Shown here in pieces: positions 1 to 32,661 of a stretch of 32,661 nt of DNA. Position 1 is the first letter of the stretch. Each line of letters begins with the position of its first letter. Position numbers and translations under genes: made by a program. Source of the DNA: an uncultured Flavobacteriales bacterium (GTDB taxonomy: Bacteria; Bacteroidota; Bacteroidia; Flavobacteriales_E; Vicingaceae); NCBI GenBank assembly GCA_913056345.1, contig CAJXMH010000031.1, positions 1 to 32,661 of the forward strand. The letters are read 5' to 3'. The notes under the pieces are model-generated. The model saw nothing but the letters and a program-made list of their open reading frames with translations, did no database searches and was not told the origin of the DNA.

Positions 1-3000
1 GTTTGCACGGTGTCAAGAATTGTGTCTACTCTGCCATTCGGGTAAGTAATGAACCAATCATAACGGTATCTTCTTCCTGCTTGCGTTCCCGCATTTAGCA
101 CGATAGCAGAATCTTGACAAACTGAGTCAACTTGATTTACTCCCGGGAAGGTTACTTGATCCTGAATTCGGTTCACTGAAGCTGTAATAGGCAACCTAAA
201 AGGGGATACACAGCTATCAATGTAGGTTTCTGCATACCATGTATAAGAGGTATCAAATGTTTCCCCACCTTCTCTTCTTACTTTGAAAACGTCAACAAAA
301 TCCCATTGTTTTTCACCAGATGGCAATACCGTTGGGTTTCTCAAGCTCAAATATGGGTTTGAGGCAGTATCCTCAGTAAAAATTGCAACCTCGTCAATAT
401 TTGCAGGGGTTACTAATCCTAATGGAATAGCTCCAGTGCCACAGCGTGAATTGTTGAGCGCTCTCCCTTGGTAAGGTTTGGTAATGTTTACCGTTACAGG
501 TAAACCAACTTCTTGACGGCAAACTTCCACCCTCAATTCAGATGTAGTATCCAATACCGTAACGTAATTTGGCGAATCATTCGGGAAACTCAGACCATCA
601 AACCAGAAACCGTTTCCATTGCGATCTAAGGTTTTCTCTTGCCATTTAAGCGCTCCAAAATAATTTTCAACCGTAAGCTGAACAGGAGTTCCAAAACAAA
701 CTGTCGGATCTGGAAGAATCACCTGAGAAATAGTTCCTGTTTCTCTTCTTGCCACTACAGTATCTCTTCGCACATCATTCGACGTAATAAGATCAGGTCT
801 GAAATTTAATCGTGTTTCAAACCAAAAAGTAGAATCTATGTCTGACATATCGAAATTGCCATTCATTTCTATAATCGCAACAGAGTCTTTTGGCAGGTCT
901 ATAATTTGAAGTGTTTGTGGATCTCTGAACACATCAGTCGTTACAGTTCTATATAGAGAATCCCATTTAAGTCCACTTCTCCAAATCATCACCTCTATAT
1001 CCAAAGTATCAGTTTGGAAATCTATAGGTAAAGAACCATTGTTTCTCACCCCTACTTTAACCGTTTGAGTATCGGTGTAACAACTCCATCTTTCCTCATT
1101 TGGTCGAATTAATGCATGTGCAGCAGCATCCGAAGGGGCAAGATCATAGATGTTAATGTCATCGATGGCCATGTTACTTCCATCAGCTGTACCTCTGACA
1201 CTAATAAACCTAAATTTCACAACATCTCCCGCATAAGTACTGAGGTCAACTTTACGTTCTTTCCAAGCCGAAGTATTTCTAATCTGATCAGGATCAGGAC
1301 CTTTTACACTGTCAACGGTTTCCCAACCAAAATCATCATCTACTTGAAGGAACAAATCTCCCATGCTTCCATCAGCGCTAAACATATGATACCAGTAACT
1401 CATTTCAGGAGAAATGGTACCCTGTAAGTCGATACATTGCGTTTGGAAGAAAATTGCATCTCCCTGAGCACCTGCGGCCGAAAGCGAGGTAATGTACGTT
1501 CCATTAGTGTTTTGCAAGGTATGGTCGAAAGCAGGACCTGTTAATCCACGACCCGCTTGAACTAAACCTTGTTCTAAGGACCATTGATAACCTAATTGTG
1601 TAGGAGGACCGACTGTAATTCCATTTAAAGGATCAACTGGATCTTCAAAGTCGACAATATAAGGCAAGTCTCTAGGGTCACCATGAACATATTCTTGATT
1701 AACAATTCGGTTCGTCATGGTGTCTATATCACCAGGAAGGAAGATTAAGGCTGATATATAATACCTTGTATAATAAGACATATCAACTGTACTATCCAAA
1801 TCAAAATCAATTTTTAAACCGGGATCAAAAAGCGGATTGGTTGGGAAGATCCAAAAAGTATCTCGTTGATATTGACCAAGTGGGAACTTTTGAATATTCG
1901 TATCAACTGCTAATATGACCCTAAAGGAATCAATTTGATCATTCCCGACATTTTGTGTCCGTATGGTTACAGTTTCAGCATCAGAATAATAACATAATCC
2001 TAATCTTGGTCTAAAGATTTGTTCTAATTCAATTTGCTGGTTTGGTGGCCGAACTACACAAACATCATCAATGGCATAAAACCCTCCACCGGGATTAACG
2101 GCAAAGAACCTAAACTCTACAAAACGACCGAGGAAGTCAGCTAATACAAGCTCTACTTTTGTCCAACTGTTTACGGAGTTCAAGCCTAAACCTTGCAAGG
2201 TATCAAGGTTTTCCCAGGCACCACCAACTTCACGAATCTGCACGAGCATAAAGTGGTTAGGGCTGGTTGCCTGATAGAAAAACTGCAAGTTGGCGGCTCG
2301 GGTAGTTGTCAGGTCATAACAGTTGGAATGGATCCAAGCAGTTTGACCAGGCATACCACCCGCAAGCAACATGTAGAGGTCGTTCACTCCTGAGGTATTT
2401 CCGTTAATTGGTCCACCTGTATCTTCGGGACCTGCAATATTTGCAGTCCAGGCATAAGATGCCCCTTGACTACTTACCCAATTGTTAGGTAAGAGTTGTT
2501 CCTGGTAATCAGGGCCCTTATCCAAGTAAGTTAGGTTACTAAAGTCAACGCAACTTGGGAATGGGTTAGTAGTATTTTCAATCACCTCGAATATTGTATC
2601 GTTAAAAGCGTAAACATCGCTGTCATTTTCAGCCCATACTTTAATCTCATACCTTCCTGAAGCAGAGAAATCTACACGATCTGTAAATTCAAATGTGTAA
2701 CGTGCAAAAGGAAGTACTAAAGCTCCTACAACAGAATCGTGCACCACAGGAAATTCAGTAACCACACCATCTAATCCGATATGGGTGATCTGATGCCCCA
2801 TATTCAATTGAGTAATGTCACGGATTCCAGTATTTTGAATTTGAACTTCCACTCTTTCACGGTTATTCATATCGCAGCCCGACTCAGGTTCTATGAGTTG
2901 TTTAGTTGTAACATCATCTAAACCTCTGTCTAGTAAAGAAACATCATCAATTCCAATGTCCCCACCACCAACGGGAGTGGTGATAGCAGAACGGAACCGG

Positions 3001-6000
3001 ATCTGTGCGTTACTGACATTTGAAAAATTATCAAGGCTTACTTGCCATTCTCTCCACGGATCTGTGGCTCTTTGCATGGTACCTGCTGCGCTGTTCCCAC
3101 GAATTACACTAACTCCCTGAATCCATTGGGTTCCATTGTGCACATCTACAAAAAGATCTCCCATATTAGCACCAAACATGTGATACCAGAAACTAAGTAC
3201 AATTCTTCCATTAACACTTGCAGAAAGATCAATATTGGTACATGCCATTCTCAGCCAAGCATTCGGTCTGTTGCTTGCCGGAGGATTCGGTCTAAACTTT
3301 GTTTCGGTTAACATGTAAATACCATCACCATTTCTTCGATCAGTAGCGAAGGTGTGATCGCCTGATGGACCATTTGGCGGAATTGGTGGCGGTGGCATAG
3401 GTTCACCAGGCATAGTTGGCGCATTTCCCTGCCAAACGTGCCAGGTAAAACCTGTTCCGTTTGGAGAACGTGACCAACTTTTTAGATCATCTCCAGGATA
3501 ACCGTTGCTGCCCAATTCATGTCTTTCGAAATTTTGAAAGTAAAAGGGTAAGCTAACTCTACGGTTAATCACCATAGTTTCTAGTGCATTGTTATCTGCA
3601 AGGGTATCTCCATTTAGCCTAGCTACCACTCTTATGGTTTGCTCACCTCCTCCACTTAAGTCCATGTTGTTGGCAAAAGTAAAGTTTGCCGTTGCTCCTA
3701 CAGGAATACCAGAAGCTAAAGTGTCAAGGGTTAACTGTCCACCATTATTGGTGTATTGCAGCTCCACGGTATTGGGCGCAATCGGCAGTGAACCAGTATT
3801 CCTAAGCTCTATTGTCACCGGCGCAGAAGCAGGTAAATTACAGTTATCACCAGTAGGACTTGTAATTTCCGTTACAGCAACATCAATGGTACTTGGACGG
3901 TAAATAAAAATATCGTCGATGGCCATATTTCCTCTTGCTCCTCCATTGGTTCCTCTAAAGCGCACCTGCATTAGCTTGCCGGCAAATGCCGATAAATCAA
4001 CTGTTTGGTAAATCCAAGGAGATGCGGCATTTCCGTTGGTTTGGCCAGCTATGGTTAAAAGGTTGATCCAACCTGTTCCGGTATCAGCTTGCACACTTAA
4101 AGCACCCATTTGGAAACCATATTTATGGTACCAAAAACTAATAGCCGCATCCGTTTCATTGGTCAGGTCGATACAGGGTGAAACAAAACTTGCCACTGTA
4201 GAGCCGGTGGTAGCTGCGGTTGGGGCGGTGTATAAGAAAATTCCATTTCCTGCTGCTGTGGTGTGGTCACCATTTGGACCAGTTCCACCTTGCGGTGTAA
4301 CATTGTCACCTTGCCCACAACGTGAATTTTGTACATGCCAAGCGTATTGGCCAGGTTCTGTTACCCATCCATTTAATACTACTTGACCTAAGAAAGCGTC
4401 GCATTGTGCATCTCTGAAAGTTTCCATGTTTTCTCCAAAGTTTGGAGCACGGGTTTGATTTTCTACTCTGTAATTGAATACCGTATCGTTAAATTGATTT
4501 GGGTCTCCTAAAAGCTCAACCCAAGTTTTAATGTTGTATTTCTTTCCTCTTACAGAAAAGTTCGCCGGCTGCGTAAAAGTAAATACGGTGGTTTGTTCCG
4601 TATTCAAGATCTGGTCAAACGTATCTTTAACGGGAGCTAAATCGTCCACTTGGTAATAAACGAACATAGAGTCCGGAAGTATCGGCAATGTACCAAAGTT
4701 GTTGATCTCTACTTCTACGGTAGAAGCCTGTGAAATATCACAACCTGCTACTGGGGCAGTTGGCCCAATAAGGTTAGCATCTTTAGGTAAGGGCTCGAAC
4801 AATTGCACATCATCAACAGCCATATCTCCAGTAAAACTTGTACCATATACTCCTCTAAAACGTATTTTTACTCTCCTACCCGCAAAAGAATTCAAACTCA
4901 CTTCTCTTTCTAACCATGGGTCAGCTTCATCGGTTTGAGTTTCTCCATTGATCCGATCCACTCCGGTAACCCATTGCGAACCATCGTATACATCTACAAA
5001 CAAGTCTCCCATTGCAGCGCCATATTTATGGTACCAAAAGATAAGCTTAGCTCCTGAATTATTGGAGAGGTCAAAACAAGGACTTTCAAAAAGCGCATCA
5101 GATCTGCCTGAGGTTGATCCCGAGGCTTCTGTATAGATGTAAACATTATTACCGTGTTGTCCATTACCTGCATGGTCACCCTGTGGTCCAGTATTTCCTG
5201 AACCAGTTGTACCTGTATTTGAGCGCCAACTGAAATTGGCTGCTGCATTGGTGGTCCAACCATTTGCTAATCCTGGAACCGGGAAAGCATCAAAATTTTC
5301 AAAATAAGGAATAGTACCTGGTGTAATGTTTTGGGTATTGGTTACCGTGATATTATTCAAGCTATCATTCGGATTAAAACCATCACCTGCGGTAGAAACC
5401 CAAACGCGCATGCTGTAGTTGCGCAGCGCAGAAAAATTATATTGATTACTAAAAGTATAACTTAACCTATTATTAGGCGGTAAAACAGCATTAATGGTTT
5501 CGGTGTAAATCGTGCCACCATCAACTTGATAAGACACATCAAAAGAATTGATGGGGTTGGCACCTTTATTTTCTACCTCAACTATAATATTTTCTGCCGA
5601 ACCATAACCACAGAGAGGGGCAGCTGAGGCAGAAGGATAAGACAATTCGTTTAAGCTTAAGTCAATGGCTTGTGGATCTCGGATAGAGAAATTATCAAAA
5701 CCAACCCCTTCTAATAAGGTGGAGTTATCGGTAGACATCACCATTCGAAACTTAACTTGAGTTTGCCCAGCCAAACCTGCTAGGATATTTTCAACTGAGA
5801 TCCAGCCGCCTGATATTCCTTCCCAAACCTGTGCAGTGGTGTTGTTGTACCAATTTGTTGGATTCGGACCGGCAGGCAATTTACTCCAAGAAACACCATT
5901 GTCAATGGAATACTCCATCCAAGCTTGATCGAAACCTCCCTCAGTTGCATAAATTAAAGAAAAACTCATGATAGGATCACCTATTGACGCCCCAAAATCA

Positions 6001-7118
6001 AAGCAGGGAGACTCTACATAAGATAACTCATTATTATTATAAGTACCTGATAGATTCGTCACATAGGCCTGCACCCCTGATGCGGCAGAATTAATAGTTA
6101 AAAATGGAGAAGGTGAAGGAGTTCCTAATGCCCATGAAGGATTGGTACCACCAATCACCCATCCTGTATTGGCTGTTTCAAAATCTGAATTATAAGTTGG
6201 AGCAAAAGCTGGGTCATTTGTAAAAGCAATGCTTAAGGTATCGTTAATCAGATTACCATCTCCAGTTAAGGAATTGTAAGTTACAAGCGAATAAGCTCCT
6301 TGTACAGAAAGATTAGCGGTGGTGGAAAAACGATAATCCAGTGAGTCATTCGGTGCTAATGTTGCAGTAATATTTTCAGTCACAGGTGCACCGCCATTGA
6401 GTTCATAGCTTACGCTGAAATTACTGGCGGGATTGGTACCCACATTTTTGATTCTTACTTCTACAGTGTCTGCGGCTCCAAGTCCACAACCACTTTCAGG
6501 TTGTAAGATTTCGGAAAGTAAAATGTCATTAGGAAAAGGAGAGTAAATTTGAACATTGTCTAGACCGACGTACCAACCCCAGTCATTTCCATCTGTGTAA
6601 TAAAAGCGTACTTGGCAATTTGCATTGGCAAATGAGGATATATCGATTGTAGCGTGAGGAAAATTATTTTGACAAGTAGCGGCTGTATAATTACCACAAT
6701 CGTCTAAAGCAGTGTTGAAAACATTGATCCATGAAGTTCCGTTAAAAACGTCTACTTTGAATGAATCAGGTATTCCGTTGAAAAAACGGGCATTATAATC
6801 AAACTCTAAAGTGGTTACCGAACTGGCTGAATTATCAAATACAGGGGATAATAATTCTGCAGTGTTATTCAATGATGTACCACCCAAAGCATCATCATCA
6901 AAATAAGCCATGGCCGTACCATCTAAATTTTGATTACCTGCATGCACACCAGCACCATCCGGACCGAAAGACCAATTGGTAGTACCTGAAATCGCAGTAT
7001 TGGTCCAACCGGCAGGTAAGGTGGCCGCATTAAAGTCTTCATCTACATGAAAATTTTGAGCGGTAGCTAGGTTGATCAAACAAGTTACAGAGAGAATTGA
7101 GAGTAATAATTTTTTCAT
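1..7118 (-). CDS. Giant secreted MAM/CARDB-repeat protein, probable T9SS cargo (3' end outside window)
   Basis: This reading frame is open from ATG at 7118 to the left edge of the window (2372 codons, no stop seen) and is incomplete at its C-terminus. Residues 1-21 are a signal peptide (MKKLLLS...NLATAQ). Seven successive units of about 290-320 residues follow. Each unit has a MAM-like beta-sandwich with the recurring motifs GPxGDHT, SFWYHxFGxxMG and MAIDDI, then a CARDB/Ig-like segment with the pattern VEVxIxNxGxxPI. Past about residue 2000 the sequence becomes PKD/Ig-like. MAM domains mediate adhesion or carbohydrate binding in other proteins. In Bacteroidetes such proteins normally end in a T9SS sorting domain, which here would lie off-window. 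Likely role: a cell-surface or released adhesin, by inference. Terminal frame was checked at several points from 5 to 5204 and is constant. The next gene upstream, trxB, is separated by a strong terminator, so this gene has its own transcript. Confidence 0.9.
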   Translation of the reverse strand, partial: MKKLLLSILSVTCLINLATAQNFHVDEDFNAATLPAGWTNTAISGTTNWSFGPDGAGVHAGNQNLDGTAMAYFDDDALGGTSLNNTAELLSPVFDNSASSVTTLEFDYNARFFNGIPDSFKVDVFNGTSWINVFNTALDDCGNYTAATCQNNFPHATIDISSFANANCQVRFYYTDGNDWGWYVGLDNVQIYSPFPNDILLSEILQPESGCGLGAADTVEVRIKNVGTNPASNFSVSYELNGGAPVTENITATLAPNDSLDYRFSTTANLSVQGAYSLVTYNSLTGDGNLINDTLSIAFTNDPAFAPTYNSDFETANTGWVIGGTNPSWALGTPSPSPFLTINSAASGVQAYVTNLSGTYNNNELSYVESPCFDFGASIGDPIMSFSLIYATEGGFDQAWMEYSIDNGVSWSKLPAGPNPTNWYNNTTAQVWEGISGGWISVENILAGLAGQTQVKFRMVMSTDNSTLLEGVGFDNFSIRDPQAIDLSLNELSYPSASAAPLCGYGSAENIIVEVENKGANPINSFDVSYQVDGGTIYTETINAVLPPNNRLSYTFSNQYNFSALRNYSMRVWVSTAGDGFNPNDSLNNITVTNTQNITPGTIPYFENFDAFPVPGLANGWTTNAAANFSWRSNTGTTGSGNTGPQGDHAGNGQHGNNVYIYTEASGSTSGRSDALFESPCFDLSNNSGAKLIFWYHKYGAAMGDLFVDVYDGSQWVTGVDRINGETQTDEADPWLEREVSLNSFAGRRVKIRFRGVYGTSFTGDMAVDDVQLFEPLPKDANLIGPTAPVAGCDISQASTVEVEINNFGTLPILPDSMFVYYQVDDLAPVKDTFDQILNTEQTTVFTFTQPANFSVRGKKYNIKTWVELLGDPNQFNDTVFNYRVENQTRAPNFGENMETFRDAQCDAFLGQVVLNGWVTEPGQYAWHVQNSRCGQGDNVTPQGGTGPNGDHTTAAGNGIFLYTAPTAATTGSTVASFVSPCIDLTNETDAAISFWYHKYGFQMGALSVQADTGTGWINLLTIAGQTNGNAASPWIYQTVDLSAFAGKLMQVRFRGTNGGARGNMAIDDIFIYRPSTIDVAVTEITSPTGDNCNLPASAPVTIELRNTGSLPIAPNTVELQYTNNGGQLTLDTLASGIPVGATANFTFANNMDLSGGGEQTIRVVARLNGDTLADNNALETMVINRRVSLPFYFQNFERHELGSNGYPGDDLKSWSRSPNGTGFTWHVWQGNAPTMPGEPMPPPPIPPNGPSGDHTFATDRRNGDGIYMLTETKFRPNPPASNRPNAWLRMACTNIDLSASVNGRIVLSFWYHMFGANMGDLFVDVHNGTQWIQGVSVIRGNSAAGTMQRATDPWREWQVSLDNFSNVSNAQIRFRSAITTPVGGGDIGIDDVSLLDRGLDDVTTKQLIEPESGCDMNNRERVEVQIQNTGIRDITQLNMGHQITHIGLDGVVTEFPVVHDSVVGALVLPFARYTFEFTDRVDFSASGRYEIKVWAENDSDVYAFNDTIFEVIENTTNPFPSCVDFSNLTYLDKGPDYQEQLLPNNWVSSQGASYAWTANIAGPEDTGGPINGNTSGVNDLYMLLAGGMPGQTAWIHSNCYDLTTTRAANLQFFYQATSPNHFMLVQIREVGGAWENLDTLQGLGLNSVNSWTKVELVLADFLGRFVEFRFFAVNPGGGFYAIDDVCVVRPPNQQIELEQIFRPRLGLCYYSDAETVTIRTQNVGNDQIDSFRVILAVDTNIQKFPLGQYQRDTFWIFPTNPLFDPGLKIDFDLDSTVDMSYYTRYYISALIFLPGDIDTMTNRIVNQEYVHGDPRDLPYIVDFEDPVDPLNGITVGPPTQLGYQWSLEQGLVQAGRGLTGPAFDHTLQNTNGTYITSLSAAGAQGDAIFFQTQCIDLQGTISPEMSYWYHMFSADGSMGDLFLQVDDDFGWETVDSVKGPDPDQIRNTSAWKERKVDLSTYAGDVVKFRFISVRGTADGSNMAIDDINIYDLAPSDAAAHALIRPNEERWSCYTDTQTVKVGVRNNGSLPIDFQTDTLDIEVMIWRSGLKWDSLYRTVTTDVFRDPQTLQIIDLPKDSVAIIEMNGNFDMSDIDSTFWFETRLNFRPDLITSNDVRRDTVVARRETGTISQVILPDPTVCFGTPVQLTVENYFGALKWQEKTLDRNGNGFWFDGLSFPNDSPNYVTVLDTTSELRVEVCRQEVGLPVTVNITKPYQGRALNNSRCGTGAIPLGLVTPANIDEVAIFTEDTASNPYLSLRNPTVLPSGEKQWDFVDVFKVRREGGETFDTSYTWYAETYIDSCVSPFRLPITASVNRIQDQVTFPGVNQVDSVCQDSAIVLNAGTQAGRRYRYDWFITYPNGRVDTILDTVQ
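1135..7050 (-). repeat. Seven MAM-plus-CARDB protein repeat units within the giant gene
   Basis: The end of each MAM module is marked by a conserved (A/V/G)(I/L/F)D(D/N)(V/I/F) motif. These lie near nt 6560 (VGLDNV), 5690 (VGFDNF), 4815 (MAVDDV), 3920 (MAIDDI), 2950 (IGIDDV), 2070 (YAIDDV) and 1165 (MAIDDI). The spacing is 870-965 bp. Approximate MAM spans are 7050-6540, 6195-5670, 5310-4795, 4440-3895, 3550-2925, 2565-2040 and 1670-1135, with CARDB-like segments between them. Repeats have diverged at the DNA level, but islands remain: the same 20-nt string covering the WYHKYG codons occurs near 4118 and 5018. Units 3, 4, 5 and 7 resemble one another most; units 1, 2 and 6 lack the full GPxGDH/WYH signature. 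Confidence 0.8.
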
Positions 7119-7144
7119 AGTCGTGCTACTTAATTTCGAATCCC

Positions 7145-7177
7145 GAAAGTTAATAAATTTTAGACTTTTATTTCAAA
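7145..7177 (-). promoter_or_regulatory. Possible sigma-A promoter of the giant MAM gene
   Basis: On the minus strand TAACTTTC (7152-7145) matches the Bacteroidetes -7 consensus TAnnTTTG at all but the last base. TTTG (7177-7174) lies 21 nt upstream, as a -33 element would. The box is about 27 nt before the ATG at 7118. This is one of several possible readings of an AT-rich leader, so it is tentative. Confidence 0.35.
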
Positions 7178-7227
7178 CTATCATTTAGGACGCACACACT
7201 TCGCTTTGGGTTGCTTTGAGCACAAAA

Positions 7228-7254
7228 AAAAGGCTTGTCAAAAACAAGCCTTTT
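7228..7254 (-). terminator. Rho-independent terminator downstream of trxB
   Basis: GGCTTGT (7232-7238) and ACAAGCC (7244-7250) form a perfect 7-bp stem, extended by four A-T pairs, around a 5-nt loop. Read on the minus strand it ends in a run of U's just past the trxB stop at 7274. A-tracts on one side and T-tracts on the other mean it could also stop plus-strand transcripts. Confidence 0.85.
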
Positions 7255-7273
7255 CTATCTTTTTAAATGATGT

Positions 7274-8227
7274 TTAATGCTTTCCAATCTCAGTTAAGTA
7301 TCGCTCAGCATCTAAAGCAGCCATGCAGCCGGTGCCTGCTGCAGTCACTGCTTGGCGGTATACTTTATCTGCAGCGTCGCCGCTAGCAAAAACGCCAGGC
7401 ACTTTTGTTTTTGAAGTCCCCTTCTCGATCTTTAGATAGCCAACTTCATCCATGTCTAACCACCCTTTGAAAATATCTGTATTCGGTTTATGACCGATGG
7501 CAACAAAAAATCCGGTTACCTCTAATTTACGTTCTTCCATGGTTTGATTATTAAAAGCAAGCACTCCTTCAACCGCTTGATCTCCTAAAACCTCTTTTAC
7601 TTCATGGTGAAAAAGCACTTCAATGTTCTCTGTATTCATTACCCTTTCTGCCATAATATTAGAAGCCCGAAATTCATCTCTTCGAACCAGCATGTAAACC
7701 TTATTACAAAGCTTGGCTAAGTAAGTTGCTTCTTCGCAGGCGGTATCTCCTCCCCCTACAATGGCCACATCTTGCCCTTTGTAAAAGAAGCCATCACAAA
7801 CAGCACAAGCACTTACGCCATGACCGTTGAGACGATCTTCTGATTCTAGCCCCAACCATTTTGCGGAAGCACCGGTTGAAATAATCACTGCATCAGCAGT
7901 TATTTCTTTGCTCTCATCCACCCATACCTTATGAACAGGGCCGGTAAAATCAACTTTTGTAGCTAAACCAAAACGTACATCGGTACCAAAACGCTCTGCT
8001 TGTTTTTGGAAATCGATCATCATCTCAGGTCCATTGATCCCATCGGGATAACCGGGGTAATTCTCTACATCATTGGTAATAGTCAACTGACCACCTGGCT
8101 GTAGGCCTTGGTACATAACAGGCTCCATATTTGCTCTTGCAGCATAAATAGCAGCGGTGTAGCCTGCAGGACCTGAACCAATGATGAGGCATTTTACATG
8201 CTCAGTATTCTGTTTTTCTTCACTCAT
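7274..8227 (-). CDS. trxB: Thioredoxin-disulfide reductase
   Basis: Cytoplasmic FAD enzyme that uses NADPH to reduce thioredoxin. The 317-residue length is normal for the low-molecular-weight bacterial type. FAD-binding GSGPAG is at residues 17-22 and the redox-active CAVCDG at 141-146, with both cysteines present. NADPH-binding GGGDTA is at 158-163, followed by the RRDEFR arginines that select NADPH over NADH, and the second FAD motif GDAAD is near 287. The start is an ATG at 8227 with a -7 box 25 nt upstream. It is a single-gene unit closed by the terminator at 7228-7254. Reduced thioredoxin is the expected electron source for the DsbD-like protein encoded at 14015-16480. Confidence 0.96.
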   Translation of the reverse strand: MSEEKQNTEHVKCLIIGSGPAGYTAAIYAARANMEPVMYQGLQPGGQLTITNDVENYPGYPDGINGPEMMIDFQKQAERFGTDVRFGLATKVDFTGPVHKVWVDESKEITADAVIISTGASAKWLGLESEDRLNGHGVSACAVCDGFFYKGQDVAIVGGGDTACEEATYLAKLCNKVYMLVRRDEFRASNIMAERVMNTENIEVLFHHEVKEVLGDQAVEGVLAFNNQTMEERKLEVTGFFVAIGHKPNTDIFKGWLDMDEVGYLKIEKGTSKTKVPGVFASGDAADKVYRQAVTAAGTGCMAALDAERYLTEIGKH

Positions 8228-8251
8228 AATTTTCTACAATAAATTGGAACA

Positions 8252-8259
8252 CAAAAATA
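8252..8259 (-). promoter_or_regulatory. Probable trxB promoter (-7 box)
   Basis: TATTTTTG on the minus strand (8259-8252) fits TAnnTTTG exactly and lies 25 nt upstream of the trxB ATG. No clear TTG -33 element is seen at the usual distance. Confidence 0.5.
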
Positions 8260-8333
8260 AGCTTTAGAATGGTAAAATTGTTTGAAAAGAAACTGTATTC
8301 AAGCAGCAATTCAAACATCAAAATTTAAGACCA

Positions 8334-8574
8334 ATGTTTAAGGTTTACATCACAAAAAGCGAGTCCCCCAACAATTATTTAGACAGGACAAACACAAGAC
8401 TTGGATAAAAGACTTTCTAGGCATCAAGGCAATGAAGTAAAAAGCACTGCCAACAAAGGTCCTTGGAAACTGGTCTACACCCTTGATTTTAAAACCAGGC
8501 AGGAAGCGGTTGAGATGGAAAGAAAAATCAAGAAAAGAGGGGCTGCTCGTTTTCTTGCATCTGCCGGTAGCTAA
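8334..8574 (+). pseudogene. GIY-YIG nuclease family gene, frameshifted relic
   Basis: From ATG at 8334 the frame reads MFKVYITKSESPNNYL, the usual start of short Bacteroidetes GIY-YIG endonuclease-like proteins, then meets a stop at 8406. From about 8383 the next frame (+1) continues the family sequence: TGQTQDLDKRLSRH, then GPWKLVYTLDF and RQEAVEMERKIKKRGAARFL, ending at TAA 8572-8574. Together they would make about 80 residues, the normal family length. A one-base indel near 8380 falls inside the YIG half of the active-site motif. The expected YIG reads as TG after the shift, so a second substitution is also likely. The conserved R (KRL) and E (EAVEME) remain. It lies directly upstream of duplicated tRNA-Pro sequence. 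The 106 bp between it and trxB hold only the trxB promoter. Confidence 0.8.
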
Positions 8575-8656
8575 TGGTTTTCAAACAGACTTATAAGTAA
8601 AAGCGCTTTTGCTTTAATTTTTGACTTTGCTAGTGGTAATTTCAAACCCTAAGTTT
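8575..8656. other. AT-rich spacer with degraded tRNA promoter copy
   Basis: No gene is seen here. AAAAGCGCTTTT (8600-8611) is a perfect 12-nt palindrome. The stretch from about 8620 to 8656 resembles the 8778-8815 leader of the intact tRNA-Pro (shared TTTGCT and GTAATTT blocks), which suggests that the duplication of the tRNA included its promoter. Confidence 0.5.
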
Positions 8657-8725
8657 CGGAATGTAGCTTAGTCCACGCTTAAGCGTGGCAGGCCTATTAA
8701 AGTGCTCGTCTGGGGGGCGAGAGAT
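8657..8725 (+). pseudogene. tRNA-Pro(GGG) pseudogene, interrupted in D-arm and missing T-arm
   Basis: This is a second copy of the tRNA-Pro at 8816-8890. The acceptor/D-arm start matches except for one base (CGGAATG instead of CGGGATG). The 29 nt 8697-8725 are identical to 8836-8864 and include the GGG anticodon arm. In place of 5 D-loop bases there are 25 bases (8672-8696) containing a 16-nt perfect palindrome. After 8725 the T-arm and 3' acceptor are replaced by unrelated sequence, so no cloverleaf can form. A non-functional relic is the simplest reading. Confidence 0.8.
8673..8688. repeat. 16-nt perfect palindrome inserted in tRNA-Pro pseudogene
   Basis: CCACGCTTAAGCGTGG is its own reverse complement. 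With its flank CAGGCCTA it replaces the D-loop of the broken tRNA copy. It looks like a short interspersed palindromic (REP-like) element, but only one copy is visible in this window. Confidence 0.6.
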
Positions 8726-8815
8726 TGTCCCGATTCAATTGAGGTCTTCCCGATCAAAAAATCTCGATTTCCTTTTATATTTTCAATTTGCTTATCGTAA
8801 TTTGGCTCACCGTTT

Positions 8816-8890
8816 CGGGATGTAGCTTAGTTCGGTTAAAGTGCTCGTCTGGGGGGCGAGAGATCGGAGGTTCAAATCCTCTCATCCCGA
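8816..8890 (+). tRNA. tRNA-Pro (anticodon GGG)
   Basis: A complete 75-nt cloverleaf can be drawn. The 7-bp acceptor CGGGATG/CATCCCG (8816-8822 with 8883-8889) is perfect. The anticodon stem CTCGT/GCGAG (8844-8848 with 8856-8860) surrounds loop CTGGGGG, with anticodon GGG at 8851-8853. The T-arm GGAGG-TTCAAAT-CCTCT is intact and the discriminator base is A8890. The terminal CCA is not encoded (CAA follows), so it must be added enzymatically. A terminator starts 6 nt downstream. Confidence 0.95.
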
Positions 8891-8925
8891 CAATCAAAAG
8901 CCTGCTTTTTTAAGTGGGCTTTTTT
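8875..8925 (+). repeat. 51-bp direct repeat, copy 1 (tRNA-Pro 3' end plus terminator)
   Basis: Positions 8875-8925 are identical to 9035-9085, base for base. The repeat starts inside the T-arm of tRNA-Pro, covers its last 16 nt, and continues through the terminator. Flanking bases differ (8874 A versus 9034 C; 8926 G versus 9086 A), so 51 bp is the exact length. Confidence 0.95.
8896..8925 (+). terminator. tRNA-Pro terminator
   Basis: AAAAGCCTGC (8896-8905) pairs with GTGGGCTTTT (8914-8923), including two G-U pairs, around an 8-nt loop and is followed by further T's. It lies just after the tRNA. Confidence 0.8.
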
Positions 8926-9034
8926 GCTTTTTTTGAGCTAAGCTTGGCTTAAAGCGAAAGAAAAAGAAAAAAGACCAAAGGGCTACAGCCCAAGGATTTT
9001 GATTGAATCCCCTCCCCAAAGGCAAGCCGAAGGC
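8926..9034. other. 109-bp non-coding segment between the two direct repeats
   Basis: No reading frame or RNA gene is recognised. It holds the palindrome GGGCTACAGCCC (8980-8991) and an A-rich stretch at 8956-8972. It may be the leftover of a deleted insertion or ordinary intergenic repeat DNA. Confidence 0.5.
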
Positions 9035-9085
9035 AATCCTCTCATCCCGACAATCAAAAGCCTGCTTTTTTAAGTGGGCTTTTTT
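9035..9085 (+). repeat. 51-bp direct repeat, copy 2 (tRNA-Pro 3' end relic plus terminator)
   Basis: Exact copy of 8875-8925, offset by 160 bp. It carries the last 16 nt of tRNA-Pro without the rest of the gene, the arrangement left when an element integrates into, or a segment duplicates from, a tRNA 3' end. Confidence 0.95.
9056..9085. terminator. Second terminator copy, also usable by the convergent lipoprotein operon
   Basis: Same hairpin as 8896-8925. Read on the minus strand it lies 14 nt past the stop of the lipoprotein gene and ends in U's, so it probably closes the comM-lipoprotein operon too. Confidence 0.65.
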
Positions 9086-9098
9086 ACGATTTTATTAT

Positions 9099-9659: not shown

Positions 9660-9666
9660 ACTCGAT

Positions 9667-10548: not shown

Positions 10549-10549
10549 A

Positions 10550-14014: not shown

Positions 14015-16480
14015 TTATTTGCTAGCGGTTTCTTTTCCTTGCTGGTAGGCATTAATACCACAATCTAAAAACTGCTCATACTCTTCTACATCGGGGGTAT
14101 ATCCCACAGGATTCCCCAGCAATTCTCCTTCAGGACTTAACATTACGTAATAAGGTTGTGAGTTATTGTTGAATACCTGAGTTTGAAAGGTTGCCCATTT
14201 GTTTCCGATGGTCTTGATCTTCTTCTTTTTAAGCTCTTTTCCTGCTTGATACTCAAACACTCCTTGCTGCTCCTCAGGTAATTTCACCTTATCATCAACA
14301 TATAGAGAAACCAAGACAAAGTCTTCCTTCAGCTTCTTTTTAATACGCTCTACGGTCCATACAGACTCTTCCATTTTTCGGCAGTTCACACATGCCCAGC
14401 CGGTAAAATCAATCAGCAAAGGCTTATTCTGTTCTTTCGCTGCAGCCAATCCCTCTTCGAAATCATCATATTCTGCATGGAAAGTTTCTTTTTCGTACCA
14501 AGAATAAAAGGTAGGTGGCGGAAAACCGCTTAATAGGTTATGATTCCAAGGAGAGTTTTTCAAAACACCTGGAGCAATGTAAATGGTAAAAGCTAGTACC
14601 ACTGCTGCAAAACCTATGCGGAAAGGAGAAAGCCTTCCAATAGGCGAATCATGTGGAAACTTGATCAAGCCTAGCAAATAGGCAGTCAGACCGATGCCGA
14701 TAATGGTCCAGATCAAAAAGAATGTTTCACGTTGAATCAATCCCCACTGTTCTACTAGGTCGGCATTGGATAAGAATTTTAGCGCAAGCCCTAACTCTAT
14801 GAAACCAAGCACCACTTTCACTGAGTTGAGCCAGCCACCTGATTGAGGTAGTTTGTTCATCATACTTGGGAAGGTAGCAAAAATGGCAAAAGGCAAACCA
14901 AGAGCCACCCCAAAACCACTCATAGCGGCGGTAATTGGCCATGGTCCGTTTTTAAGTGCATTTCCTAAAACAGTTCCTAAAATTGGCCCTGTGCAAGAGA
15001 AAGAAACTAAAGCTAGTGTTAAGGCCATAAAAAAGATTCCCAATACTCCACCCACCTGAGAAGCAGAGTCAGCCTTATTGGTGAGCTTGCTTGGCAAGGT
15101 AATTTCAAAGTAGCCAAAAAAGGAAATGGCGAAAACCACGAAGACCAGAAAGAAAATAATATTTAACCAAACTGAAGTAGCAACCTCGTTTAAGATTTCC
15201 GGATCAGTATTGAAGTGAAAAGGTATACTGAGAACCGCATAAATAGCGAAAATAAAAAAGCCATAAAGCACTGCTTTACCAACTCCTTTGCTATCTCCAT
15301 CCCCTTTTGTAAAAAAACTTACGGTTAAAGGTATCATTGGAAACACACAAGGCGTTAATAAGGCGATCAAACCTCCAATAAAGCCAAATAAAAAAACCAT
15401 CCATACATTGCTGATCTCCTTCCTTTCTCCACAAGAAGAAACAGGATTATCCAAATCAACCAGTGGCAAAGATGGAATCACTTTACTGACGTCCAAATTG
15501 GCTTTTTGATCAGCTTTATCAAGTGCATTTAAGCCCTTACCGCTTTGTAGATCAAATTCAAATTCAATGATCTCCGGAGGCAAGCACATTTTGTCGTTAC
15601 AGACCATAAACTCTAGCTCACCCTTTACCAACTTTTCTGTGGTCTTAATCTTCTGCTCAAAACTCGCTTGATCTGCAAAATAGTTAAGATCCATTTCAAA
15701 ATTAGGATCATAGTCGGTGATCAACTCACCTGTTTCCTCTACCTCCCCAATCAGTTCGTGCTTGTCCTCTTCAAAGTAAAAGGCAGTAGCAATAGGACCA
15801 TCGTCATTTGGTAGGTGCTGAGAATACAAATGCCAGCCCTCGCCTATAGCCGCTTCAAAAAGCAGCAAATAAGTATTCGCTTCTTCTAGCTTTTCTACTT
15901 GGAAAGACCATCTGACTGCTTGGTCATTCTGCTCATTGCTTGCTTCAGTGGCTTTTAAGTCTGCTTCTTCAGGTTCTACTAGATCGCCAGTCGTCTCCTC
16001 AGGCATTGGTTCAGTTACATTTCCTGTAGCGGGAATGGCAAAAACAAGATCAACATATTCTGGAGGTAGGCATTTTTCTTCATCACAAACCATAAAGTAA
16101 ACCTCAGCCGTAATTTCAAAGGCTTCAGGTGTGCTAGGTTTGATCAATTGAGTAAAGGTCACCTGATCTTTGAAAAAGTTGAGATCCATATCAAAATTAG
16201 GATCGTATTCCGTGATAGCTTCGGGCTCTTTAACGGCACCTAGCAACTCATATTCAGCTCCCTCTGGGAAGGCGAACTCAGTGGCAATCGGGCCATCGTC
16301 ACTCGGTAAGCTTTGTGAATATAGGTGCCAATTTTTTTCAATACTTGCAGTTACTTTCAAGGCAAACTTCCCATCTTGCAATTGCTCAACATTAGTTTCC
16401 CAACTTACGGGATTAAAGACTTGAGCTAATAGAGAAGAACTTAAAAAAACAGCTAGAAGCAAAGAAAAAACACCTTTCAT
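14015..16480 (-). CDS. dsbD: DsbD-like thiol:disulfide reductase with duplicated N-terminal domain
   Basis: Moves electrons from cytoplasmic thioredoxin across the inner membrane to periplasmic proteins. From ATG at 16480 (821 residues), residues 1-20 are a signal peptide. Two copies of the DsbD-alpha-type domain follow: about 21-150 and 190-312. They share WHLYSQxLPxDDGPIAT, YDPNFxMDLN and FMVCxxxxCLPPE, with Cys pairs C132/C137 and C294/C299. The membrane domain has about eight helices from about 357 to 640, with its redox cysteines in [10 protein letters not shown] (C378) and SFSCTGP (C496). The C-terminal thioredoxin domain has CVNC at 697-700. All redox pairs are therefore intact. Most DsbDs have one N-terminal domain. 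The upstream ATG at 16543 would overlap the previous gene and precede the signal peptide. Last gene of the pabB operon. Confidence 0.9.
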
Positions 16481-16517
16481 AAAACCCTTTTTTAAATAAT
16501 AGTTACCAAAAGTAACA

Positions 16518-17231
16518 TTATTTCCCCGAGGGATGCAGCTCAATATGGTCTCTTAACTCTTCATTAAGACTTAAACCGAAATGCTTTTTTATGACCCCTA
16601 CAAAAAGATAAAGCAGAGGAGTATCAATGGCTGCCACCAGAACTTTAAATAAAAAGCCGTTGATGAGTAAGTCAGTAAAGCGGTTCCAAGAGATCGCTTC
16701 AAAGAGACACAGCAAGAATAAAACTGCTGCTGTATCAACAAATTGAGAGGTCATGGTGGAGGCATTATTTCTTAGCCAAAGGTGTTTACCTTTTGTCAGG
16801 TTTTTCCAAAAATGGTAAATGCGGATATCGACTAACTGCGCTAACAAATAAGCGATCATAGAAGCAGATACCGCTACTCCTGTGAGTCCAAAAACTTGAT
16901 TGAAAGTCAGGTCATCCACAGGCGACCATGTAGTGGCAGGAACTCCATTGGCGGCCCAAACGATAGCCAAAACAAAAACAGTTGAGAACAATCCTGCAAT
17001 CACTACCTGATTCGCTTTTTTCTTCCCGAAAATTTCAGAAATAATGTCGGTTATCAGAAAAGTGATGGGATAAGGTAGAATGCCCACTGAGATCTCAAAG
17101 GTGTAAAAGCCAAAAAAATTCCAGCTAAAAAATTTTTGAAAGATGAGATTACCGGCAACCAAAGAAGCAATAAACAAGGCTCCTAGCACTAAATATAGCC
17201 GCTCTGCTTGTCTTCTTTTCACTGCCTCCAT
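16518..17231 (-). CDS. yhhQ: Queuosine precursor transporter (YhhQ/DUF165 family)
   Basis: Integral inner-membrane protein of 237 residues. It is expected to import the queuosine precursors queuine or preQ0/preQ1 used for tRNA modification. The family hallmark [20 protein letters not shown] is at about 50-69, followed by KKKAN. A second conserved patch, [15 protein letters not shown], is at about 152-168. Five or six hydrophobic segments cover the length. The start ATG lies inside the last codons of tilS (13-nt overlap), so the two tRNA-modification-related genes are probably co-translated. Which precursor is carried cannot be told from sequence. Confidence 0.9.
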
Positions 17232-27712: not shown

Positions 27713-27720
27713 TAGTTTTG
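27713..27720 (+). promoter_or_regulatory. Probable promoter (-7 box) of the secreted endonuclease
   Basis: TAGTTTTG matches TAnnTTTG exactly and lies 18 nt before ATG 27739. The possible TTG start at 27718 overlaps this box, which supports the ATG as the true start. Confidence 0.5.
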
Positions 27721-27738
27721 CTCTTTAAGATTTTATTT

Positions 27739-29352
27739 ATGAAGAAATTACTTAGCCTTCTGTGCTTACTTCCGCTATTTAGCGAAGCCCAGATTATTCA
27801 AACACAGCCTACCGCACTAAATTTTGGAAATGTTACGGTTGGACAAAAAGATAGCCTAAGCTTGACCTTGACCAATACCGGCAGTCAAAGCGTTAACATT
27901 ACCAACATTAAAAATTATTTGATCTACGGTGACTATCCTTTTACCGTATCGCAGACAACCTTAAGTTTAACTGCAGGTGCTTCTCAATCTATTTGGGTTT
28001 ATTTTGAACCTGAGCATAACATTTTGAATAATTCCGAGCTTGTGATCCAACACAATACCACAAGTGGAAACACAGCAGTTGATGTGAGAGGTCAAGGCGT
28101 TTTTGGCAACACCTATTACAGCAGTACGCAGAATTTAGAAGAGGAAGCGCTAAAAACGGCTTTAAAAACTCGTTTAGGACAGGGGTACAACCAAAGAAGC
28201 TACAACCAAGCAAGAGACGCAATGTACGCTACGATCGACAACAACAGTGGTCAAGTTGAGTGCGCTTACACAGGTAGAAGAGCCACTTTTAATACAAGAT
28301 CAGGAGCTAACAGCAACAGCTTTAATTGTGAGCATACTTTCCCGCAGGGTTTTTTCAATCAGAATTTACCCATGCGTAGTGACATTCATCATTTGTTTTC
28401 AACCGATGTAACCGCCAATAGTCGAAGGAGCAACTTTCCTTTTGGTATTGTAAGTGGAAACGGCACTTGGTCGCAAGGAGGCTCTAAAGTAGGCGGCGGA
28501 GTTTTTGAACCTAGAAATGTTCAGAAAGGTAGAACCGCAAGAGCCATGATGTATTTCGTGATCCGTTACCAAGATTACTCAGGACATTTTGGCCCTCAAG
28601 AAACAACTCTTAGAAACTGGCACAACACCTACCCGCCTAATGCGTCGGAACGGCAACGAAATAATGATATTTTTAATGTTCAAAACAATCGGAATCCTTT
28701 TGTTGATTATCCTCAGCTAGAGGAACGCATTACCAATTTCGTTAGTTTTTCAACCAAGCCTACACAACTTGGTTTGGACATAACCCAAACTTCAATTGAC
28801 TTTGGTAATTTCAGTGCAAATCAAGCTGACACCTTCGTCTACGTTTTAGTTAATAGAGGCAATCAAGCGATTAATTTTAGCAACTTTAGCTTAAGTAATA
28901 ATCAATACCTGTCTTTTGGAGCCACTTCAGGCAGTAACCAATCGCTTAACCCGGGAGATGCGATAAAAATTGAGGTAATAGCACAAACCCAAGGAATAGC
29001 AATTAGCTTGAACGAAAGTTTGAGTTTTAATACCAGCTTACCTGGTTCACAATCGAGTTTTACCATTCCAATCAGAGGCAATTCGATCATCACTGGCTTA
29101 CAGAATTCAAGGCTTGAAAGCCAGCTTTCAGTTTACCCGAACCCGGTTGAAGATCGCTTGCTTTTAGAACACCCTGCAGTAAGTAAACTCCAACTTAAGC
29201 TTTACAATTCTTCGGCTCAGGAAATAGCTACTTCTTGGAAACAAATGGGAACCTCAGCTTTAGAGCTTGAAACATCGCACTTAAAACAAGGAGTTTACTT
29301 CCTTGAAATAAACAACGGAAGTAAAAGCATCGTAAAGAAAATACTCAAGTAA
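27739..29352 (+). CDS. Secreted endonuclease I with HYDIN/choice-of-anchor domains and T9SS tail
   Basis: 537 residues. Residues 1-18 are a signal peptide. A beta domain of the ASPM/HYDIN or choice-of-anchor D type (about 20-125; LNFGNVTVGQ, GQGVFG) is followed by the endonuclease I (EndA/NucM) domain at about 130-335. Key motifs are CEHTFPQG (197-204), RSDIHHLFSTD (213-223) and NxRRSNFPFG (227-236), which supply the metal-binding and general-base His. A second, weaker HYDIN-like domain (about 343-450; IDFGNFSANQAD) precedes a type A T9SS C-terminal sorting domain (about 458-537; VYPNPVEDRLLLE...GVYFLEI). It is therefore an extracellular non-specific nuclease, presumably for nutrient or phosphate scavenging or DNA degradation. 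It ends 5 bp from the convergent OMP gene. Confidence 0.9.
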   Translation: MKKLLSLLCLLPLFSEAQIIQTQPTALNFGNVTVGQKDSLSLTLTNTGSQSVNITNIKNYLIYGDYPFTVSQTTLSLTAGASQSIWVYFEPEHNILNNSELVIQHNTTSGNTAVDVRGQGVFGNTYYSSTQNLEEEALKTALKTRLGQGYNQRSYNQARDAMYATIDNNSGQVECAYTGRRATFNTRSGANSNSFNCEHTFPQGFFNQNLPMRSDIHHLFSTDVTANSRRSNFPFGIVSGNGTWSQGGSKVGGGVFEPRNVQKGRTARAMMYFVIRYQDYSGHFGPQETTLRNWHNTYPPNASERQRNNDIFNVQNNRNPFVDYPQLEERITNFVSFSTKPTQLGLDITQTSIDFGNFSANQADTFVYVLVNRGNQAINFSNFSLSNNQYLSFGATSGSNQSLNPGDAIKIEVIAQTQGIAISLNESLSFNTSLPGSQSSFTIPIRGNSIITGLQNSRLESQLSVYPNPVEDRLLLEHPAVSKLQLKLYNSSAQEIATSWKQMGTSALELETSHLKQGVYFLEINNGSKSIVKKILK

Positions 29353-30264: not shown

Positions 30265-32661
30265 TTAGCGTAAGAGGTACATTTTACCAAATTCTTCTTT
30301 GAAGAAATCATCTACTGAAGATTCACGATGTTCAAGTGTTGCACCGTCAATTTTCATCTTAACCCGATAGAGGTAAACGCCATTGGCCAGTTGGTCACCA
30401 AATTCATCTTTCCCATCCCAAGCATAGGTACTGATATTATTCCCAATGCGAATAGGACCTAGCTCATATTGATCTATTTCTTTTACAACCTTACCGGTAA
30501 CGGTCATGATCTGAATTTGAATTTGATCAGGAACCTTCGAGCCGGTTAAGGTAAATACAAAGCGGGTTGAAGTGGAAAAGGGATTTGGGTAGTTCAAAAG
30601 ATGGGTTACGGTTGATTCTGTAATCACTTCAAATTCTACCACAAAGTCTTCTTGAGCAGTGGTATTTCCAGACTTATCGAAAGCTTGCACCCTTAGCTGG
30701 TAAACGCCATCTTGCTTAAAGCTTGGTCTGTAAACCACTTGTGCTTTATTTTCAGGCAAAGAAGCAGGAATAAACTGCAGAAGGTCAGCACTGTTCTGGT
30801 AATTCAATAAAGTTTCCTGCCCTTGCGGGTCACGAATAAAGAGGCGCATACTGCTTGTATCGTCTATGGCCAAGAATTGATTTTCATCATCTAAACGAAT
30901 TCGAATTTCAGGTTCTGCCGAAACAATTTCTCGATTAATAATGCGCTTTCCGTCAAAGGTTACATCTAATAATGGATTGAGCCGATCTTGGGTAACAAAA
31001 AAGGTGAACTCACCTTGGTTATTGAAATAGTTCAGTTCAAGCGGATCGCGTTTAGCATTTAACTCAATAATTAAGGTTTGAAGACCACTTAAATTGCCCG
31101 TATTGAGCTCTGCCGAGTAACGTATTGTGCTATCAGCCGGCAGTGGTGGCAGTTTTTCTTGCTTTAGGTGATTTATTTGGTTGTTATTATTTAAGATACT
31201 CAAGTCGACGGTGAAACTATCTGGCAAGGAAGCACCAAGATTGGTAATGGCCACCGACAAAGATAATGGCTGACCTGCCTGCAAAGTATCAGAACTGATA
31301 CTAAAGAAACGTTGAGGATTTAAAGCCAGATCTGCTACCATCTGGTGGCTTATTTCCCAACGCAATAATTGTGGTGCAGTTCTCAATTGATCGTCATAAG
31401 TGGTTGCCTTAAGTTGTAAGTTGGGATACTGCGCGACATCAGCGATGGTATTTAAAGAAGTATCGATAAAAAATCGGTTGCTTCTTAAAAGTAAGTTTTC
31501 ATTTCCTTGTGCATCTAAACCGATCAAATCAACAATCAAGCTATCAGCGCTATTGCTCTCTAATGGCCTAAAGTGATAGCTCAATTTTTCCCAATTGAAA
31601 GAAGGACCTACCAATGGAGAGCGATACTCTCCAAATGCGGAGTTAACTTGAATGTCTCTGGTAAGCGTAATCCTTGCATTGGCTGAATCGCCTGCTAGCT
31701 CTTCGACTGAGCTTACATCCCCTTTTTTGACCGTGAATATGAAAGGATAATTATCTTGAAGCCCATTGATCTCAGTACTACCCAAAGTTTCAAAAGCCTT
31801 CAAAACAGTTGAATCTTGATTACGGATTTGGCTGTAAGAAACCGGCAACCAATTGTAAATCACAATGTAGTGACCATCAGGAACTCGATTAAGAATCATA
31901 TCGCGCATGGCTCTCATTTCACTTAAACTATCTGAGCGAAATAAGAAGTAGGATTCCGAACGCTCCCTAAAAGGAGAACACCAATTGTTAACATTTGCCT
32001 GACCAAAGTCATTTTGATTGAACTGACCATTATATGGGGTCTGCCAAGATTCCAAGGTTAGGGAGTCCAAGACCGCAACAAGAAATCCTTCGGCATTTCT
32101 TACCCTGCAAGCGCCTCTTTCACGAATATCTGCATCAATCGCATAGAGGATATCATTGAGCTCTCTATTGTTTTGAGGATTGCCTAGGTTAACCACTCTT
32201 AATTCTCGCGCACCAGTAGTGTACTGAAATTCCCTTTGTGAGCGGTTTTGCGCAATAAACACATTGGGATTATTCAAATATTGATCGAAGTGATCTTGAG
32301 ACCAGCCACTTTGTTGATTAATATATTGAAAAGAACTCACTCGCCATTTGTAGTCAGCAGGATTAGCTGCCACCGGACTAACGCGCCAAAAATACACGGC
32401 ACTATCTGGCATAGCATCTAATACAGCAGGTGACCATTCTATTACTCCACCGGAGGAAGTTACCTCATAAGTTTGCTTGAAAGGACTGCTAAAAGTTCCA
32501 TTTGTATCCAACTCAAATCTGTATGATTTTTCTCTTTCAAAAGCAAAAGCAGTTGAGGCTTTCAAACTTGGTGATTGGCTTCCTACAATTGAAAATTTAG
32601 CCGGACTTACAGGAATAATCTCTCCCGAACGAACCAATACATCAAAATCGAGACGATTATT
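30265..32661 (-). CDS. C-terminal part of a PorU2-like T9SS/C25-type protein (5' end outside window)
   Basis: The reading frame stays open to the right edge (the last codons before residue SPAK read NNRLDFDVLVRS), so this is a fragment of at least 798 residues; the TTG at 32637 is not a start. An interleukin-like EMT inducer (ILEI)-type domain covers about 120-305 (VLDSLT...RVPDGHYIVIYNW...LKAFETLGST...YPFIFTVKKG). A CARDB-like Ig domain is at about 445-560. The C-terminus has a FlgD-Ig/T9SS-like segment (LLNYPNPFSTSTRF...DGKDEFGDQLANGVYLYRV). Large Bacteroidetes proteins with this order and an N-terminal C25 peptidase domain are known as PorU2; that N-terminal half would lie off-window. Alternative: a large extracellular T9SS cargo protein. 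Confidence 0.6.
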   Translation of the reverse strand, partial: NNRLDFDVLVRSGEIIPVSPAKFSIVGSQSPSLKASTAFAFEREKSYRFELDTNGTFSSPFKQTYEVTSSGGVIEWSPAVLDAMPDSAVYFWRVSPVAANPADYKWRVSSFQYINQQSGWSQDHFDQYLNNPNVFIAQNRSQREFQYTTGARELRVVNLGNPQNNRELNDILYAIDADIRERGACRVRNAEGFLVAVLDSLTLESWQTPYNGQFNQNDFGQANVNNWCSPFRERSESYFLFRSDSLSEMRAMRDMILNRVPDGHYIVIYNWLPVSYSQIRNQDSTVLKAFETLGSTEINGLQDNYPFIFTVKKGDVSSVEELAGDSANARITLTRDIQVNSAFGEYRSPLVGPSFNWEKLSYHFRPLESNSADSLIVDLIGLDAQGNENLLLRSNRFFIDTSLNTIADVAQYPNLQLKATTYDDQLRTAPQLLRWEISHQMVADLALNPQRFFSISSDTLQAGQPLSLSVAITNLGASLPDSFTVDLSILNNNNQINHLKQEKLPPLPADSTIRYSAELNTGNLSGLQTLIIELNAKRDPLELNYFNNQGEFTFFVTQDRLNPLLDVTFDGKRIINREIVSAEPEIRIRLDDENQFLAIDDTSSMRLFIRDPQGQETLLNYQNSADLLQFIPASLPENKAQVVYRPSFKQDGVYQLRVQAFDKSGNTTAQEDFVVEFEVITESTVTHLLNYPNPFSTSTRFVFTLTGSKVPDQIQIQIMTVTGKVVKEIDQYELGPIRIGNNISTYAWDGKDEFGDQLANGVYLYRVKMKIDGATLEHRESSVDDFFKEEFGKMYLLR

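Follow-up and report, generated by a model that had tools for sequence, protein, structure and literature searches.

A giant Vicingaceae protein of seven MAM/CARDB units, probably an old and order-fixed array, with a cysteine pattern suggestive of covalent CARDB–MAM joints

The window analyzed here, a stretch of 32,661 nucleotides, is the complete contig C31 (G000:C31) of a 2.9 Mb assembly that is 99.7% complete, and it carries a giant gene whose product alternates seven MAM with seven CARDB-like domains. We regard this product, with somewhat better than even confidence, as a Sec- and T9SS-exported stalk that is anchored in the outer membrane, consists of seven old, position-specific MAM/CARDB units and most likely serves as an adhesin. 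A long reading frame thereby becomes, as judged from its relatives, a dated architecture, in which the order of the seven units would have been settled, next to an unchanged neighbouring gene, before several genera diverged. The interesting part, which we consider worth a specialist's time, is a pattern of cysteines at the joints between units.

Results

A giant reading frame cut by the contig end

The reading frame starts with ATG on the minus strand and is open at its 3′ side, with no stop at the far end (Table 1). Since the window is a whole contig, the giant gene was cut by the assembly and not by nature. The initial annotation, made from the sequence alone, had described a single reading frame of at least 2372 residues, and all 2372 open codons are indeed present; it had also placed the frame among the largest to be expected in such a genome, a claim that fails against a T9SS-tailed frame of 3106 codons on contig C28. 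We sought the gene's own 3′ end in the genome with the last 262 residues of a homologue and retrieved only the tails of other genes. Contigs C52 and C18 were rejected as the missing end, as they start with orphan T9SS tails unlike the C-termini of the homologues, and so was contig C38, whose right end bears an unrelated frame on the opposite strand. The missing part of the protein is expected to comprise roughly 130–150 residues, a T9SS sorting domain among them. A search of the 2372-residue protein with curated profiles for enzyme domains gave none.

Table 1 Features of the giant gene and of other genes in the window discussed in the text
Feature	Position	Strand	Remarks
Giant T9SS-type surface protein	3..7118	-	2372 codons present, 3′ end lost at contig end
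Sec signal peptide, residues 1-20 (MKKLLLSILSVTCLINLATA)	7059..7118	-	Read by eye from sequence
MAM 1, residues 21-193	6540..7058	-	Without 'SPC' cysteine; choice_anch_J 45.6 bits
CARDB 1, residues 194-304	6207..6539	-	Loop Cys211
MAM 2, residues 305-481	5676..6206	-	Cys372; singly no curated profile above cut-off
CARDB 2, residues 482-600	5319..5675	-	Loop Cys503
MAM 3, residues 601-775	4794..5318	-	Cys681; Pfam MAM 65 bits; model pLDDT 92
CARDB 3, residues 776-889	4452..4793	-	Loop Cys793
MAM 4, residues 890-1074	3897..4451	-	Cys982; Pfam MAM 60 bits
CARDB 4, residues 1075-1188	3555..3896	-	Loop Cys1093
MAM 5, residues 1189-1397	2928..3554	-	Cys1293; Pfam MAM 39 bits
CARDB 5, residues 1398-1517	2568..2927	-	Loop Cys1415
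MAM 6, residues 1518-1690	2049..2567	-	Cys1600; singly no curated profile above cut-off
CARDB 6, residues 1691-1815	1674..2048	-	Loop Cys1709
MAM 7, residues 1816-1992	1143..1673	-	Cys1895; Pfam MAM 43 bits
CARDB 7, residues 1993-2107	798..1142	-	Loop Cys2013
C-terminal region, residues 2108-2372	3..797	-	Weakly Ig-like: PF19081 Ig_7, below cut-off
trxB (thioredoxin reductase)	7274..8227	-	Identity read from sequence; upstream of giant gene
DsbD-like thiol-disulphide protein	14015..16543	-	
Secreted endonuclease I	27718..29352	+	Ig-like (choice-of-anchor D) domain and T9SS tail
PorU-related T9SS sortase, C-terminal part	30265..32661	-	Open at right contig end

Seven MAM and seven CARDB-like domains in strict alternation

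Profiles built from segments of the protein itself resolved seven MAM and seven CARDB-like segments in strict alternation, with scores (105–205 bits for MAM, 91–134 bits for the CARDB-like segments) that are flattering because the profiles were self-trained. The units measure 284, 296, 289, 299, 329, 298 and about 299 amino acids, or 852–987 bp, close to the period of 870–965 bp given in the initial annotation, whose count of seven MAM/CARDB units is borne out by the unbroken alternation. Its grading of units 3, 4, 5 and 7 as tight and of units 1, 2 and 6 as loose agrees with BLAST of the MAM domains: pairs among the former reached E-values of 6e-13 or better, and pairs involving one of the latter ranged from 0.4 to 1.6e-11 at best. 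A self-comparison of the whole protein by BLAST showed nothing off the diagonal, and the similarity emerged only once the units had been cut out and compared. Judged from the sequence, the mature protein probably begins at Q21; the pair Q21-N22 is invariant in four homologues.

Over the whole protein, the Pfam profiles for MAM (PF00629; 216.8 bits, cut-off 26.4) and CARDB (PF07705; 33.9 bits, cut-off 22.7), which had been proposed as a check, both scored above cut-off. Taken singly, only units 3, 4, 5 and 7 passed the MAM profile; unit 1 passed the NCBIfam choice-of-anchor J profile (cut-off 30), and units 2 and 6 passed nothing. The single CARDB units all fell below 22.7 (best 21.8), so that only the summed score of the whole protein passes, and their individual identity as CARDB is weak.

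Structure prediction of a single unit, likewise proposed, was run on unit 3 from 43 aligned units (the window protein and five relatives), and the resulting model (mean pLDDT 92) shows the jelly-roll fold of MAM. Its residues 1–178 matched 8yt7 best (Z 18.7; 2.3 Å over 161 residues), with Z of 17–18.7 against the MAM domains of scavenger receptor-C, meprin and enteropeptidase and of 15–18.7 against solved MAM domains overall. The sequence profile by itself retrieved MAM chains in the PDB, with E-values down to 2e-19. Reelin and carbohydrate-binding folds were rejected for unit 3, as they scored lower than MAM in the fold search. Thus, model and sequence profile both favour MAM, and no rival fold displaces the original assignment. 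The fold search covered only residues 1–178; seven further strands follow residue 180 in the model, in the CARDB half, where a seven-stranded Ig-like fold would be expected. A model of the C-terminal region was useless (pLDDT 33).

Relatives and distribution

Homologues occur in genomes of other genera of the same family and in records named Flavobacteriales and Vicingaceae. They comprise 2565, 2516, about 2870, about 2850, 3254 and 2169 codons, with 7, 7, 8, 8, 9 and 6 units, respectively; one more, cut at 1876 codons, has at least 6. In all seven of these loci trxB lies directly upstream, and it is 84–89% identical. Several relatives (L046, L047, L063 and L044) carry a second giant gene directly after the trxB-adjacent one, which in L046 encodes MAM, fn3, a NosD-like part and a T9SS tail. 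In another locus (L077; G166:C108) a homologous MAM/CARDB chain is broken by an in-frame stop and resumes with the same domain order.

Clear matches to unit 5 were found in 9 of 46 family genomes, representing 6 of 16 genera; across a sample of 198 genomes from the class, 29 had a module like unit 1. If every kind of MAM domain is counted, 43 of the 46 genomes of this bacterial family have at least one. The earlier remark that MAM modules are best known from animal surface proteins is therefore a fair statement about the domain, but such domains are commonplace here, and for that reason we consider the giant protein itself fairly ordinary, another in the series of giant T9SS surface proteins with repeats. 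MAM domains in bacteria were already known and are not new; a literature search of incomplete coverage returned no paper that links MAM with T9SS, CARDB or cleaved adhesin.

The order of the units appears to predate the genera

Trees were built from 75 MAM domains and from 58 whole units; in them, positions 1, 2, 4, 5, 6 and 7 each formed a supported clade across genera, the clade of position 3 being weaker. Units at the same position in different genera are 41–59% identical (mean 50) and units at different positions within one protein 16–38% (mean 24), and these ranges never overlap. The tree places the additional units of longer homologues between positions 3 and 4, and the six-unit homologue is without one middle unit. 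From the position clades and the higher identity of same-position units, we conclude that, on the evidence of these comparisons, the array is old and fixed in order, its seven positions having already diverged from one another when the genera split. The tandem duplication first suggested thus stands as ancient history but not as a live process. The number of units in relatives does vary, from 6 to 9, as counted between genera rather than strains, but this hardly reflects recent growth, as the positions form clades. Conservation between genera falls toward the anchored end, from 63% in MAM 1 (the highest) to 44% in MAM 7 and 33% in the C-terminal region.

This class of proteins does offer an example of tandem growth: a five-MAM paralogue (L040, G000:C4:105000-120000, ORF 6579-10964) has a MAM 3 and a MAM 4 that are young duplicates of MAM 2 type. 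Two four-MAM paralogues, L011 (G000:C58) and L039 (G000:C16), are 86% identical in DNA, and C58 opens with 77 bases that equal the end of the gene on C16; the pair probably represents a head-to-tail duplication broken up by the assembly.

Paired cysteines at the CARDB–MAM joints

Two cysteines stand out in the alignment of 43 units: one lies in the CARDB loop that joins the first two strands and is invariant, and the other follows 'SP' in MAM and is missing only from the first units. Both cysteines were present at 118 of 126 CARDB-to-MAM junctions and neither at 7, with a single discordant case, so that 125 of 126 agree; in the proteins that were included only once the idea had formed, agreement was complete (64 of 64 junctions). 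We rejected a bond between the MAM and the CARDB of the same unit, as junctions from a MAM to the following CARDB showed no cysteine association (104, 5, 36, 1) and terminal MAMs with no CARDB after them keep the cysteine, which pointed to the preceding CARDB. MAMs with no detected preceding CARDB lack the cysteine in 48 of 55 cases. As for the seven that have it, one starts a frame after a stop, and the other six are preceded by an unrecognised stretch of about 120–140 residues, itself cysteine-containing.

These counts suggest a disulphide between each CARDB and the MAM of the next unit. The predicted pairs in the window protein are 211–372, 503–681, 793–982, 1093–1293, 1415–1600 and 1709–1895. 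The predicted pairing fits the geometry of an Ig-like sandwich, whose first strand is followed by a loop at the end that faces the next domain. The window also encodes a DsbD-like thiol-disulphide protein (Table 1), which may be worth noting next to an exported protein with putative cysteine staples.

Export and anchoring

At the C-terminus of the full-length homologues lies a T9SS type A sorting domain, recognized by profile in two (Por_Secre_tail / TIGR04183) or by alignment. The suggestion that a T9SS domain would be found at the protein's end therefore holds for the homologues (TIGR04183/PF18962), whereas the tail of this copy lies beyond the contig end. That the protein is secreted, as originally proposed, agrees with the Sec-type signal peptide, read by eye, and with the T9SS tail of the homologues. 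Profiles detected SprA (562 bits) and PorU (1366 bits) in the genome, with a complete PorU on C22, as well as a GldJ-like protein just below its cut-off (435 against 458 bits), so that the bacterium may or may not glide; the T9SS sorting domain had 97 matches in the 2.9 Mb genome, including the 3106-codon frame on C28. In Porphyromonas gingivalis, PorU removes the type A domain, and anionic lipopolysaccharide takes its place (PMC9143113).

Two further genes of the window touch on this subject (Table 1). One encodes a secreted endonuclease I with a T9SS tail. The other is the C-terminal part of a PorU-related T9SS sortase (NF033707, 86 bits; PorU2 N-terminal model, 25 bits), the N-terminal part of which may lie on another contig (C40:393-2594).

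Discussion

A working model can be drawn from these observations. The Sec signal would bring the giant protein to the periplasm, and the C-terminal type A domain, lost here at the contig end, would direct its passage through the SprA translocon. A PorU-type sortase would then cut off that domain and attach the C-terminal side to the cell surface, so that fourteen beta-sandwich domains project outward with MAM 1, the best conserved, at the distal tip; each CARDB would be bonded to the following MAM, and every CARDB–MAM joint would be stiffened. Among the possible functions we put adhesion first, given a surface stalk of many domains whose tip is conserved. The analysis shows the architecture, the MAM fold of one unit, the conservation by position, the T9SS tail of homologues, the T9SS genes of the genome and the pattern of cysteine pairing; from these we infer adhesion, and likewise a ligand, as well as the surface anchoring of this copy and the disulphide itself.

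How the array and its cysteines arose admits other accounts. A recently grown tandem array, with a unit number that varies between strains, would explain why the units are homologous to each other, why they number 6 to 9 depending on the genus and why one paralogue, on contig C4, has two young MAM copies. For this protein, however, it is contradicted by the position clades across genera, by identity ranges that never overlap, by the placement of added units between positions 3 and 4 and by the lack of a nucleotide-level tandem repeat of the units (periods up to 500 only), and we consider it very improbable. Another view is that the cysteine pattern reflects the inheritance of CARDB–MAM blocks and not a disulphide. 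Block-wise duplication would bring both cysteines along together, and independent losses are few, as the seven junctions without either cysteine sit in four proteins, three of them apparently related. Yet the association survives thinning to 35% identity (12/1/0/3, p = 0.007), one chain (L067p2) has a single junction without both cysteines while its others keep both, and MAMs with no detected preceding CARDB mostly lack theirs. We therefore hold block inheritance to be unlikely, though worth keeping in mind. We give about an even chance to the wider proposal that the MAM/CARDB stalks of Bacteroidota are disulphide-stapled rods, in which the loop cysteine of CARDB is joined to the 'SP-C' of the next MAM, the structural unit is CARDB–MAM, giant stalks are stiffened by covalent joints and the cysteines are unlike those of animal MAM.

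As to function, the stalk could be a structural coat or matrix protein that forms an outer layer or spacer with no specific binding. Three points speak for such a role: the genome encodes numerous other giant MAM/fn3/CARDB proteins with a T9SS tail, positions are conserved rather than tips variable, and joints with cysteine staples would suit a rigid rod. We nonetheless find it rather improbable: the presumed tip, MAM 1, is conserved beyond the need of a mere spacer, and the gene is patchy, being clear in only 9 of the 46 family genomes. Still less probable is that the jelly-roll MAMs act like carbohydrate-binding modules and hold algal polysaccharide or exopolysaccharide for partner enzymes. 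The MAM fold is near such modules, but the Z of 13.4 to an alginate-binding module is no better than that to numerous jelly rolls with no relation to them, Eph receptors for example; moreover, the protein is without a catalytic domain, and the identified neighbours in the window are housekeeping or T9SS genes and no polysaccharide-utilisation locus. A conserved distal domain would also suit a structural or enzyme-partner role. We regard an adhesin as plausible and rank it ahead of a coat protein and of glycan capture.

If true, a covalent joint at every CARDB–MAM boundary would matter for many giant surface proteins in the phylum, and it is a sharp and cheaply checked prediction.

The protein resembles several known systems. 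The K domains of P. gingivalis HagA and gingipains are likewise repeated jelly-roll domains of giant T9SS cargo, and the Kgp K1–K3 structures match the unit 3 model with Z of 14.6–15.6; HagA, too, has no protease and consists of repeating cleaved-adhesin domains (PMC5266723). The Cleaved_Adhesin profile (PF07675), however, stays below its cut-off on the window protein (16.8 against 21.4 bits), and the adhesin regions of HagA and gingipains mix in DUF2436 where the window protein has CARDB. Repeats of HagA type include identical copies that break assemblies (PMC5266723), whereas the present units are old and diverged. SprB, the gliding adhesin, is also a giant T9SS-exported surface protein of Bacteroidota, but it has a type B sorting domain (PMC9143113), unlike the type A domain of the homologues described here, the tail of this copy lying outside the assembly. 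The MAM of Bacillus InhA (PF20773; 37.7 bits over the whole protein, cut-off 26.9) belongs to a metalloprotease, whereas the window protein has no protease domain. NCBI's own label for such bacterial MAM-like domains, choice-of-anchor J (NCBIfam NF038128; 89.3 bits over the whole protein, in four stretches), covers one domain and is silent on the seven-unit architecture and the cysteine pairing. Animal MAM proteins (meprin, enteropeptidase, neuropilin, RPTP-mu and SR-C) share the fold and the sequence profile, but in an alignment to the MAM domains of enteropeptidase and SR-C their cysteine before an LSFWYH-like motif is absent from the window protein, whose MAM cysteine lies elsewhere, after 'SP'.
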